A DNA stretch of 64,000 bases from Polytrichum commune (lineage: Eukaryota; Streptophyta; Polytrichopsida; Polytrichales; Polytrichaceae). The position numbers and the translations under genes are program-made. The notes beneath the pieces were generated by a model. It saw only the letters and a program-made list of their open reading frames with translations, had not been told where the DNA came from and did not search any database. Positions 8,560-55,181 of this stretch are shown here, piece after piece (the stretch's first letter is position 1; each line of letters begins with the position of its first letter). Location of the stretch: contig OX485805.1 in the NCBI GenBank assembly GCA_950295325.1, positions 24,045,501 to 24,109,500 on the forward strand, written 5' to 3'.

Positions 8560-9365
8560 TAAAAGGGCACCGGTATGGGTGGGTAGTGGTATGTCGCTGC
8601 AGTCCTCATGGCCTAGTTAAAAGCCGGGTGACGGACCCAAAAAACCTCTGTTCACACCTTTTGGGGCTTATGTGGTTGACGGTCCCTATCCCAAGGGTGA
8701 TGCATACCCTTTGCCCATTCTACCAAAATGGGTGGGGTGGATTGGGTTTTGGGTGACATTGGGTAGGCGCCCTCTTGGTGACGTGCACCGGAATTGGGTG
8801 CTTTGTGGTGCGCACCGTCTACCCGAATCGGTGGACATACCTAGATGGCCACCGTTGTGGGTGCACACATGCCATTCACCTATCATGTGATGACACATCC
8901 CACATTGGAGTATATGGAGGGTATGACAAGTAGGGTAAGGGTAAGGGTTGGGTAGGTGTTGGTAGCGGTCGGGTAGCTTTGGGTGGGTGTTGGGGTAGCA
9001 TTGGGTGGGTGTTGGGTTGGCGTTGGGTGGGTGTTGGTAGCGGTGGGTAGCGTTGGGTGGGTGTTGGGGTAGCGTTGGGTGGGTATTTGGGTAGCGTTGG
9101 GTAGCGTTGGGTAGCGTCGGGTAGCGGTAGGTAGCGTTGGGTGGGTGTTGGGGTAGTGTTGGGTGGGTATTTGGGTAGTGTTGGGGTAGTGTTGGGTGGG
9201 TATTTGGGTAGCGTTGGGTAGCGTCGGGTAGCGTTGGGTGGGTGTTGGGGTAGCATTGGGTAGGTGTTGGGGTAGCGTTGGGTGGCGTCGGGTAGCGTTG
9301 GGTGGGTGTTGGGGTAGCGTTGGGTGGCGTCGGGTAGCGTTGGGTGGGTGTTGGGTGGGTTATCC
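8560..9365 (+). repeat. CACTA left subterminal region with G-rich minisatellite
   Basis: Bases 8560-8900 are dense in TGGGT / ACCCA words. Bases 8930-9365 are a minisatellite assembled from GGGTAGCGTTGGGTGGGTGTTGG-like units (about 20-25 bases, with shorter GGGTAGCGTT units mixed in). The plus strand is strongly G-rich with regularly spaced GGG runs, so G-quadruplex formation is plausible. The 163-codon proline- and threonine-rich antisense frame is simply the translation of this repeat. Confidence 0.85.
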
Positions 9366-50100: not shown

Positions 50101-50573
50101 ATAACCTGTTCAAGTTTAAGACTTTAGGAATACTACCAGTTATATTAGAGGAATTTATAGAATATGCCTCACTTTACGAAGAAAAACCTAAAGGTCTTAA
50201 CAATTAACCGATTTGACTTTGAAGCAGTAGGATCTCGACTGATTATGCCCATAAAATCTCCCCGGACACTATATCAATCAATGGAAAATCACCATTTGAT
50301 TTGAAGTAAAATTAAGAATCTCAAGTAAACACTGACCCATATACTAATTCATGGTGCTTTTGTTAGATATTTGATGAATAAGAGTGGATTTACGTTAGGG
50401 TTTGGGCCCAAGAAGCATGGGGTCCACGACACCCCTTCATGGAGCTCACTTTTGGACTCAAGATTGTAAATCAAGCTTAAAATTTGGTTTCTTAAGTCGA
50501 GTGGAATATTTTTTTGAAACAAGACCTACAAGATTCGACCCACATTTGCACCACTTCATTTTTTTCATACTTT

Positions 50574-50666
50574 GCATTCAAACCCTAGTGTAAACTCCTT
50601 GGGTGGAATGTTTTTTCATACTTTGCATTCAAACCCTAGCGTAAACTCCTTGGGTGGAAATGTTTG
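50574..50666 (+). repeat. 51/52-bp tandem repeat, 2 copies
   Basis: TTCATACTTTGCATTCAAAC starts at 50574 and 50615. The paralogue at 2280 has three copies. Confidence 0.85.
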
Positions 50667-51623: not shown

Positions 51624-53025
51624 TAGTCCATCTTGCAAACAATAAAGCTCTTACGGCAGCTGTAGCATCACAATCACTTGTTCAGCTAGGGCTGCTCGAT
51701 CATGGCTTTACCTATGGTAATCGAGATTGGGCTGGAGAGAGGCTTCCGCACAGCCATGAGTGACTTCTTGACTATGCAGCTTCAGCTTGCGTCTGTCTTT
51801 TTCACTTTCTCCTTGGGAACAAAGACTCACTACTTTGGTCGGACAATTTTGCACGGTGGTGCCAAATATCGTCCAACTGGTCGAGGGTTTGTTGTAAGGC
51901 ATGAGAGAACTACAGACTATATTCACGGTCTCACTTCACAAAAGGGATTGAGCTTCTTTTACTGCTCATTGTATACACGCACCATATACATGTCCCGCTC
52001 TGCAAGTGGAGCAGTTATGTACATTTTGATCACCTTTTCAATGTGGTTCCTGGTAGCATCATGGTTATTTGCACCTTTCTTGTTCAATCAGTCGGGCTTT
52101 GAGTGGCAGAAGATTGTCGAAGACTGGGATGATTGGAACAAGTGGATCAGTAACAGGTGAACATCTTGCGCGCCAATTTGCTTAGTGCAATTACTTGAAT
52201 TTCTAAATCTCGCTGTGTAAAACAGCTCCACATGTGAATAGTGTATCTGTATGCAGTATCTTAATACTCCTATACGTGTTATTCCTATGGCAGGGGAGGA
52301 ATCGGTGTGGAAGGTGCCAAGAGTTGGGAGTCCCGGTGGGATGAAGAGCAAGAACATTTAAGTTTCACAGGGTTCCGAGGACGTTTGATAGAGTGCATAC
52401 TGGCCATGCGGTTCTTCCTCTACGAATATGGCATAATCTACCATTTGAACATTGTGCAAACATCAAACAATCTGAGCATCAGTGTACGTCCCAAACCATT
52501 CCATGAGATCTTGATAACTGTGATGTTTGTGTTATTTCCTCAACATATGATCTGCTTGTTGATCTTTTTGGGTGGTGTTTTTTGTTACCAGGTATATGGA
52601 CTTTCGTGGCTGGTCATATTGGCAGTAATTGCAGTATAGAAGGTTTCTTCCAAAACTCCTGACCTCAATTGTTTTGATTATGGAGAAACGTGGGGAGGTA
52701 TAATGAGAAATCGGGGGAGATTTTTAATCTGTTGAGATAGGTTCCTGGAGATTGGTGTTTCGGTTTTTCGCTAAAGCTGCATCTCTACACACAGATTTGC
52801 ATAAACCATCCATGACATTTAATTTACTTACTACATATGCAGATTGTCTCGATGGGACAAGATAAATTCAGTGCGGACTTTCAGCTGATGTACAGACTGT
52901 TAAAGGCATGTCTCTTTGTTGGTTCTATATCTGTGATCGCCGTCCTACATGTGAGGCAGTTCACTGTTGGTGATCTATTTGCTAGCATTTTGGCGTTCAT
53001 ACCCACAGGGTGGGCATTGCTCCAG
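51624..53025 (+). pseudogene. Callose synthase (GSL) C-terminal fragment, decayed
   Basis: The exons match plant plasma-membrane beta-1,3-glucan synthases near their C-terminal membrane domain. 51624-52158 encodes NNKALTAAVASQSLVQLGLL, EIGLERGFRTAMSDF and FSLGTKTHYFGRTILHGG. 52294-52483 encodes GGIGVEGAKSWESRW. 52592-52642 encodes VYGLSWLVILAV. 52843-53025 encodes DKFSADFQLMYRLLK and ILAFIPTGWALLQ, with a donor after it. All introns keep GT-AG ends. Damage comprises a 4-base GATC frameshift at LGLL before MALPM (about 51697), a roughly 10-base deletion after VVRH that shifts the ENYRLYSRSHF segment out of frame until a compensating indel, and an in-frame TAG at 52637-52639. The catalytic N-terminal part and last exon are absent. 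It is a transposed dead fragment. Confidence 0.92.
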
Positions 53026-53687: not shown

Positions 53688-55181
53688 CTATTGGATTCCC
53701 CATTCCATAGGATCGGCAGGCAATTGTAACATTGCCATGAAATTTGGGGAATCGATGTTTAGCAGTTCAACTGGATTATTTTCGTCCAGTATTTGTTCAC
53801 TTGCTTCTTCTGGAACGTCAGGTATTTTCAACATTTCCATGAAGCTTGAGAAATCGAGATCTCGCAGCTCAACCGGATTAGTTTCGTCCAATTTTTGCTC
53901 AATTGCTTCTTCCGGAACGTCAGATATTTGCACCATTCCCATGAAACTTGAGCAATCGAAATCTGGCACCTCAGCCTGTTTATTTTCCTCCGGTGTTTGA
54001 TAATTTGCATCTTCCGGGGCGTCAAGCGATTCCCACTTATTCATGAAACTTGGGGTATCGACATTTAGCAGGTGCTCAATTGGATTGTTTTCGTCCAGTA
54101 TTTGTTCACTTGCTTCTTCTGGAACGTCAGGTTTTTCCATCATTTCCATGAAGCTTGAGAAATCGAGATCTCGCAGCTCAACTGGATTAGTTTCGTCCAA
54201 TTTTTGCTCAATTGCTTCTTCCGGAACGTCAGATAATTGCACCATTCCCATGAAACTTGAGCAATCGAAATCCGGCACCTCAGCCTGTTTATTTTCCTCC
54301 GGTGATTGATAATTTGCATCTTCCGGGGCATCAAGCGATTCCCACTTATTCATGAAACCTGGGGAATCGACATTTAGCAGGTGCTCAACTGGATTGTTTT
54401 CGTCTGATATTTGTTCACTTGCGTTTTCCGGAACGGCAGATAATTGCATCGTTTCCATGAAACTTGAGCAATCGACATCTGGTAGCTCCGCCAGAGTAAT
54501 TTCGTTCAATGTTTGCTCACTTGTTTGTCCCACGACATCACGTGATTGCATCATTCCCGAGAGACTTGGGGAGCCTGTATCTTGGAGCTCATCCCAATTA
54601 ATCTCACCCAGAAAGCTTTCAGCTCCCGCTTCCGGAACGTAACGCGATTCCATCAATTCCACGATACTTGAGGAATCGGCGTTTGGCAAAAAATCTGAAC
54701 CAATTTTGGTCAACATATGCTCGGTTGGCTCTCCCGGAACATCGACAGCTTGCGCCCAACGATTCATGTTGGGACTTCGCCGTCCTCCGTATGTGAAGGA
54801 CGTTTTACAGGCTCCACACTTGTAACGTGGTTGTCCGACGTTGCCATTATTGAAGTACAGGAACTTGGAAGTTCCGATTCTCTCACAACTTGGGTTCGGA
54901 CATGGAACCTCTGCAATATTTGGGAGGAGTTCTGCGAATGCAACCGCAATCTTCGCGTAGCCTCCAGCATGTTTCTTTCTTCGGGAGGCGGGATTGTGCG
55001 TGAAATATTTTTTGCACCCCAAACATTTGTATCTCGGTTGCTGGATGTTTTTGTTGTTCAAGAACTTATACTCCGCATTAGTGGAGCTGCAAAACGGGCA
55101 TGTCTTGGTGACACCCACGTACATGGCAGGCTCCACAACTCTTTTGGGCCTCCCCATTTTGGCGGCCAACTCCTTCTTCAT
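53688..55181 (-). CDS. Tandem Dof-like zinc-finger protein with ten 34-residue acidic repeats
   Basis: A single intact 497-codon frame, the longest in the window. Residues 1-20 include a basic GRPKR motif. Finger 1 (C28, C31, C53, C56) has the exact Dof spacing CX2CX21CX2C and the core NNKNIQQPRYKC. Finger 2 (C94, C99, C122, C125) is CX4CX22CX2C with KFLYFNNGNVGQPRYKCGAC. Both continue into basic residues. From residue 148 to 490 come ten consecutive repeats of 34-35 residues (consensus VPEEASEQ.LDENNPVEL.DVDSSSFM.MMQ..D), very acidic with a hydrophobic SFMEMM core, then PMEWGIQ and stop. Repeats 5-7 and 8-10 are near-identical triplets. Normal Dof transcription factors have one finger binding AAAG and no such array. 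A DNA-binding activator is a reasonable inference, with the repeats acting as activation or protein-binding modules. The start is the first ATG after an in-frame break, and a second ATG is at codon 9. It lies inside a transposed block, convergent to the callose synthase fragment. Confidence 0.85.
   Translation of the reverse strand: MKKELAAKMGRPKRVVEPAMYVGVTKTCPFCSSTNAEYKFLNNKNIQQPRYKCLGCKKYFTHNPASRRKKHAGGYAKIAVAFAELLPNIAEVPCPNPSCERIGTSKFLYFNNGNVGQPRYKCGACKTSFTYGGRRSPNMNRWAQAVDVPGEPTEHMLTKIGSDFLPNADSSSIVELMESRYVPEAGAESFLGEINWDELQDTGSPSLSGMMQSRDVVGQTSEQTLNEITLAELPDVDCSSFMETMQLSAVPENASEQISDENNPVEHLLNVDSPGFMNKWESLDAPEDANYQSPEENKQAEVPDFDCSSFMGMVQLSDVPEEAIEQKLDETNPVELRDLDFSSFMEMMEKPDVPEEASEQILDENNPIEHLLNVDTPSFMNKWESLDAPEDANYQTPEENKQAEVPDFDCSSFMGMVQISDVPEEAIEQKLDETNPVELRDLDFSSFMEMLKIPDVPEEASEQILDENNPVELLNIDSPNFMAMLQLPADPMEWGIQ
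53712..54740 (-). repeat. 102-bp coding tandem repeats (ten units, with a 309-bp triplet duplicated)
   Basis: DNA encoding residues 148-490. Each unit is 102 or 105 bases. The last six units are two 309-bp blocks (about 54329-54021 and 54020-53712) differing at few positions, while units 1-3 are much more diverged. That gradient shows stepwise amplification with the newest expansion at the C-terminal end. All length changes are multiples of three, so the frame has been kept. Confidence 0.9.

Follow-up and report, generated by a model that had tools for sequence, protein, structure and literature searches.

A tandem Dof-like protein with an acidic repeat array, and its gene family, in the moss Polytrichum commune

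The locus and the finger-bearing head of its longest frame

The window is a 64-kb stretch of the Polytrichum commune genome (C3:24045501-24109500) within an assembly of 408 Mb in 64 contigs, whose seven large, numbered contigs point to n = 7. Its longest open frame, hereafter the window gene, runs uninterrupted from ATG to TAG on the minus strand (53688..55181) and encodes 497 amino acids; the runner-up spans 259 aa and starts at GTG. Sixty simulated first-order Markov windows of 64 kb gave a longest ATG frame of 145 aa on average and of 187 aa at most. An open frame arisen by chance was rejected on this comparison, and the intact 497-codon frame reported in the first-pass annotation stands. 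An exon of a neighboring 1,3-beta-glucan (callose) synthase gene lies at 51690..52160 on the plus strand (PF02364, E 1.2e-35). The window also holds two tandem runs of one 52-bp unit (TTTCATACTTTGCATTCAAACCC...), separated by 48 kb (2279-2434 and 50560-50665), and a G-rich minisatellite of about 400 bp with a GTTGGGTAGC-type unit (8947-9355). Elsewhere in the assembly, fourteen LHC-type matches of equal best profile score lie on both strands of about 95 kb (C5:1751760-1846160; L029-L034 and others), and PsaL matches occur at three places on C2 (65.09-65.13 Mb) and once on the small contig C31. The PsaL protein of this plant agrees with a moss origin: its best PDB chain is 8htu_L at 388 bits, ahead of four chains at 322, 319, 313 and 311 bits and of 30 more among the matches listed at 294 bits or less, and 8htu, 7xqp, 6l35 and 7ksq are structures from Physcomitrium patens. 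An LHC protein points weakly in that direction, with 8htu and 7xqp in second and third place behind a longer chain matched in two stretches.

The first 140 residues of the window protein form a basic head, with 25 K/R against 6 D/E. Near its start is the element K-M-G-R-P-K-R (residues 8-14; 55140..55160, minus strand), which we take to be AT-hook-like. Two four-cysteine knuckles follow on the same strand. Finger 1 (residues 28-56; 55014..55100) has exactly the Dof spacing, CX2CX21CX2C, and finger 2 (residues 94-125; 54807..54902) is spaced CX4CX22CX2C, both as stated in the first-pass annotation. The kinship of the two fingers with Dof, proposed at the same time, is supported by the Pfam profile PF02701, which matched the protein in two stretches (E 4.5e-20; 72 bits, above the curated cut-off of 26.6), and by a sequence search of the PDB, in which the Dof chain of CDF1 (8xuf_C) aligned with finger 2 at E 8.3e-6, the sole match below E 0.2. 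The AlphaFold model of the finger module was of low confidence (mean pLDDT 53), both of our AlphaFold models being built from 12-13 sequences. With this model Foldseek again placed the DNA-bound CDF1 Dof (8xuf_C) at rank 1 (probability 0.99, rmsd 1.7, E 0.26); no match for the module reached E 0.001 or better, and the weak matches below rank 1 included zinc ribbons with different roles, among them those of RNA polymerase subunits.

A textbook Dof protein has one zinc finger. The window protein shares with the Dof transcription factors (PF02701, for example CDF1) the four-cysteine knuckle, the NN and QPR motifs, the finger 1 spacing and the rank-1 match, and differs from them in having two fingers, the altered spacing of finger 2 and the acidic repeat array. 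It also lacks the W of RYWT and most of the GGTLRNVPVGGGxRK arm; the full arm RYWTxGGTLRNVPVGGGxRK, as all eight canonical fingers found in the assembly have it, is present in neither finger. At the knuckle positions that are invariant in those eight canonical fingers, finger 1 keeps 11 of 20 and finger 2 keeps 14 of 20, the latter in an alignment that leaves out three residues, the third picked for best fit. At the invariant positions of the C-terminal arm the figures fall to 5 of 16 and 3 of 16, respectively. Five further loci with one PF02701 match each (L046-L050) keep 12-15 knuckle and 5-8 arm positions, and from this gradation we infer a stepwise departure from the canonical Dofs. AAAG recognition, which the first-pass annotation carried over from known Dofs, cannot be assumed; because most of the canonical C-terminal arm is lost, binding of AAAG by these fingers is doubtful, and the DNA site of the tandem Dof-like fingers has probably changed.

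The acidic array and its three-unit blocks

Downstream of the fingers the protein consists of an acidic array (residues 165-497; 53691..54689, minus strand), in which 79 D/E stand against 12 K/R in 333 residues. The count of ten units given in the first-pass annotation was correct: nine have 34 or 35 aa, the first of them being degenerate, and the tenth is shortened to 25 aa. The approximate core of a unit is D-[IVL]-D-x-x-S-F-M-x-M-[MWV], with S8 kept in 36 and F9 in 29 of the 39 full-length units. A structure prediction, which had been proposed earlier as a check on the array, gave no fold: AlphaFold left the array unstructured, at pLDDT 24-46 by blocks of ten (model mean 40), and low pLDDT in such a low-confidence model is weak evidence of disorder.

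The amplified unit of the array is a block of three units (309 bp), because Tandem Repeats Finder detected a period of 309 bp (score 1282) and the self-identity of the array peaks at a distance of 103 residues. At that lag, the highest of ten lags compared, self-identity was 0.62, against 0.35 at lag 34; 2000 shuffles, each scanned over lags 10 to 119, gave 0.17 at most. The first block (units 4-6, residues 268-370) covers 309 bp at 54072..54380 and the second (units 7-9, residues 371-472) covers 306 bp at 53766..54071, both on the minus strand. The first-pass description of the array as acidic-hydrophobic is upheld, and its repeat number varies, the intact genes of this type having 7 units (L010, L011 and L012), 10 (the window gene) or 13 (L009). 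We propose that the arrays grow by unequal exchange of the in-frame three-unit block (7, 10, 13), which would leave the fingers untouched.

The gene family and its coding status

A PF02701 profile search of the genome returned at least 82 matches, at least 60 of them over the cut-off, such genome-wide counts being lower bounds. They include at least eight canonical Dof fingers, scoring 113-120 bits, and at least 16 open frames with two or more matches over the cut-off: 15 have two and one (L023) has three. Four further frames have two matches each, at least one of which is below the cut-off. One two-finger module is common to 13 of the 16 multi-finger frames, which form three subfamilies: W (the window gene and L009-L012) with the C-terminal acidic array; L013 (L013, L015 and L016) without an array; and L017, whose five genes (L017-L020) have acidic repeats of another kind N-terminal to the fingers. 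Across all 13 aligned modules each of the eight cysteines is conserved without exception, as are both copies of NN and of QPRY. Because these cysteines do not vary, the CX4C spacing of finger 2, which is common to 13 of 13 modules, is, as judged from the alignment, a trait of all three subfamilies and not a defect of the window copy. Six of the seven W- and L013-type relatives keep GRPK, the exception being L016 with GRSC, and the five L017-type genes have KKxRKR at that position. A tree was built from 50 finger segments after removal of six identical ones, and the program warned of few columns and long branches. In it, the finger 1s of the three subfamilies clustered together with support 99/98 and the finger 2s of the W and L013 types with support 96/93; the L017-type finger 2s and one L024 finger joined the other finger 2s in a weak fork (92/76).

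Other arrangements of Dof-like fingers were encountered in the course of this search. L023 (C4:7642000-7645500) is a single 681-aa frame with three Dof-like fingers (three PF02701 stretches) and poly-T and poly-H runs, and at L024 (C6:44467000-44474200) four Dof-like frames stand in a row, by pattern three one-fingered and one two-fingered. In L013 (residues 275-302) and L016 (residues 240-267) a strongly acidic segment is followed, close to the C-terminus, by a CX2CX20CX2C-like motif that may be the remnant of a third finger.

The genome search located the array at seven loci, each of them finger-linked: five intact genes and two broken copies carrying stops (C3:50.86 Mb and C3:29.01 Mb). An array without finger remains was not found among the 13 matches of the genome search, in which an absent match is no proof of absence. 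The acidic repeat of the L017 type gave six matches, only within the five L017-type genes, and in L019 its region is also enlarged. No kinship of the two kinds of acidic repeat was detectable with hhalign (probability 0.4), whose short profile may miss a distant link. All five array genes encode proteins with similar ends, apart from a short extension in L010. The window gene and L009, about 112 kb apart, share one orientation, and since their flanks match at 94 and 96% identity beyond the gene, the sequence comparison identifies the two as a segmental duplicate.

Selection was assessed by dN/dS between paralogues. Over the whole gene, the comparisons of the window gene with L010, L011 and L012 gave 0.37, 0.34 and 0.36, by which the first-pass reading of an intact gene gains selection as a further argument. 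The fingers gave 0.37, 0.19 and 0.15 in the same comparisons, and the tails 0.37, 0.42 and 0.52, the pairing of the tails being uncertain where unit numbers differ. Among the equal-length seven-unit genes L010, L011 and L012 the tail values were 0.32, 0.47 and 0.67. Eight of the ten array-gene pairs fell at 0.32-0.57 for the tail, the close pairs of the window gene with L009 and of L011 with L012 giving 0.64 and 0.67, and the tail exceeded the finger in 8 of 10 pairs (one tie, one undefined). The nearest pair, the window gene and L009, stood at 0.72 overall on few changes (12.5 synonymous, 35.5 other). The L017-type acidic N-terminus, by comparison, gave 0.74-1.12 in those 9 of 10 pairs that have a synonymous change. 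By these substitution patterns, purifying selection acts on the genes that carry the array.

A chance frame or a decaying pseudogene is a reading to which we attach next to no probability. The two broken array copies would suit decay, but the length of the frame is far past chance and neutral decay soon loses the frame: of 500 copies simulated without indels, 28 were still free of stops at a divergence of 5% and 2 at a divergence of 10%, yet paralogues at dS of about 0.3 are still open. A family in which all homologues are broken, named earlier as grounds for abandoning the proposal, was likewise rejected, as 5 of 7 array loci are intact with dN/dS below 1. The transposase zinc-ribbon profiles InsA, IS1 and IS1595 matched the window protein below cut-off, and a transposon gene appears unlikely.

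What the array may do

The window protein may be a nuclear regulator of the Dof lineage, with two knuckles on DNA and an acidic array that recruits a coactivator, a reading whose chances we hold to be even. The two tandem zinc knuckles and the basic N-terminal element would bind DNA. Each unit of the long acidic tail, which is probably disordered, would contribute a short acidic-hydrophobic motif for docking, and these motifs would engage a coactivator, for example Mediator. When the three-unit block is exchanged unequally, the number of docking motifs would change (7, 10, 13) and the fingers would be spared, and repeat number may set the strength of action. That the protein binds zinc and DNA, resides in the nucleus and activates transcription, and that the number of units matters to its function, are all predictions from the sequence. 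The reading as a whole is supported by the array having been found only in the finger-bearing clade and by the sister subfamily, which has a different acidic repeat before the same fingers. Activation domains of the VP16 and p53 type are acidic, carry several hydrophobic patches and are probably disordered. In Gal4, according to the part of PMC8044209 consulted, several hydrophobic patches within one acidic region bind Med15. The window array resembles these domains in its acidity, several hydrophobic patches and probable disorder, and differs in its regular tandem units of 34-35 residues and in that its function is predicted.

The array was compared with two sequence rules for such domains. 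The FxxPhiPhi motif, from work on acidic activators, occurs in 5 of the window gene's 10 units, where shuffling inside each unit gives 0.93 on average, the units being mutual copies and not independent; in the other array genes it occurs in 8/13, 4/7, 5/7 and 5/7 units, with shuffle means across genes of 0.35-1.34. The rule that combines acidity with W, F, Y and L over 39 residues gave 25 passing stretches in the window protein, a number reached by 8 of 200 whole-protein shuffles, and in the 13-unit paralogue L009 the real count was reached in 65 of 200. When M was added to the rule, a change of our own, none of 200 shuffles reached the real count in either protein. Family proteins without a passing stretch numbered 5 of 18 by the original rule and 3 of 18 with M added. 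The array has a low pLDDT and an excess of acidic residues, but the original rule sets it apart from shuffles only weakly. By pN among the seven-unit genes, the motif core did not clearly evolve more slowly than the linker (0.079 vs 0.110, 0.102 vs 0.118 and 0.040 vs 0.035 in the three pairs).

That last result also suits neutral repeat growth, in which unequal exchange acts in a disordered tail and the gene works while copy number is without effect. The higher dN/dS of tails than of fingers in 8 of 10 pairs and the values for the L017-type N-terminus (0.74-1.12 in 9 of 10) point the same way. Copy number, however, changes by whole in-frame three-unit blocks, and the tails, close pairs aside, are still constrained (0.32-0.57 in 8 of 10 pairs). 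We give this account appreciable weight while doubting it, and it is compatible with the activator part of the reading above. The pairing of a basic head with an acidic tail would also fit autoinhibition or competition, the tail folding onto the finger head or mimicking DNA so that a longer array makes a weaker protein; with only 5/16 and 3/16 canonical arm positions, DNA binding is perhaps already weak. A purely electrostatic tail would, however, have no need of a regular hydrophobic core, here with S8 in 36/39 and F9 in 29/39 units, and we consider this reading rather unlikely. Equally improbable in our estimation is an adaptor without sequence-specific DNA binding, whose knuckles would bind protein or RNA and whose array would be a multivalent scaffold. 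The loss of the C-terminal arm and the weak structural matches below rank 1 to other zinc ribbons, for example of RNA polymerase subunits, would agree with it, but all 13 aligned modules keep both QPRY, both NN and the full set of eight cysteines, and the top match by both sequence and structure is a Dof in complex with DNA.

The architecture had been called undescribed, and for the array this holds among the literature matches listed, where no acidic array of this kind on Dof-like fingers was found, subscription papers being mostly outside coverage. For multi-finger Dof genes it does not: the consulted part of a 2024 review (PMC10842470) lists 16 multi-Dof genes from Aquilegia, Actinidia, Rhododendron and mosses (Physcomitrella patens has 4 of them and Ceratodon purpureus 3) and terms them an uncharacterized novelty, maybe artefacts. 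The part of PMC13161181 consulted names 11 species, no moss among them. The genes of PMC10842470 resemble ours in having more than one Dof domain, mosses included; no repeat array is reported in the part consulted. The same part has the domains of one gene grouping together, whereas here the finger 1s of three subfamilies group instead (99/98).

In this genome the data speak against the artefact explanation, and genes that the consulted part of PMC10842470 treats as possible artefacts here make up a family that numbers 16 or more open frames, beside at least eight canonical fingers. We tentatively suggest, as a broader conjecture that may well prove wrong, that tandem Dof-like proteins are a second Dof-derived class of moss regulators, with two or three knuckles, the arm lost and a new DNA site, in which acidic docking arrays would have been gained repeatedly on either side of the fingers and growth by three units would act as a heritable dial of activation. 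The relation of motif number to output is usually approached with synthetic constructs. The paralogues, whose natural arrays have 7, 10 or 13 units, are a ready-made series on the number of activation motifs, if such they are, and its relation to output.
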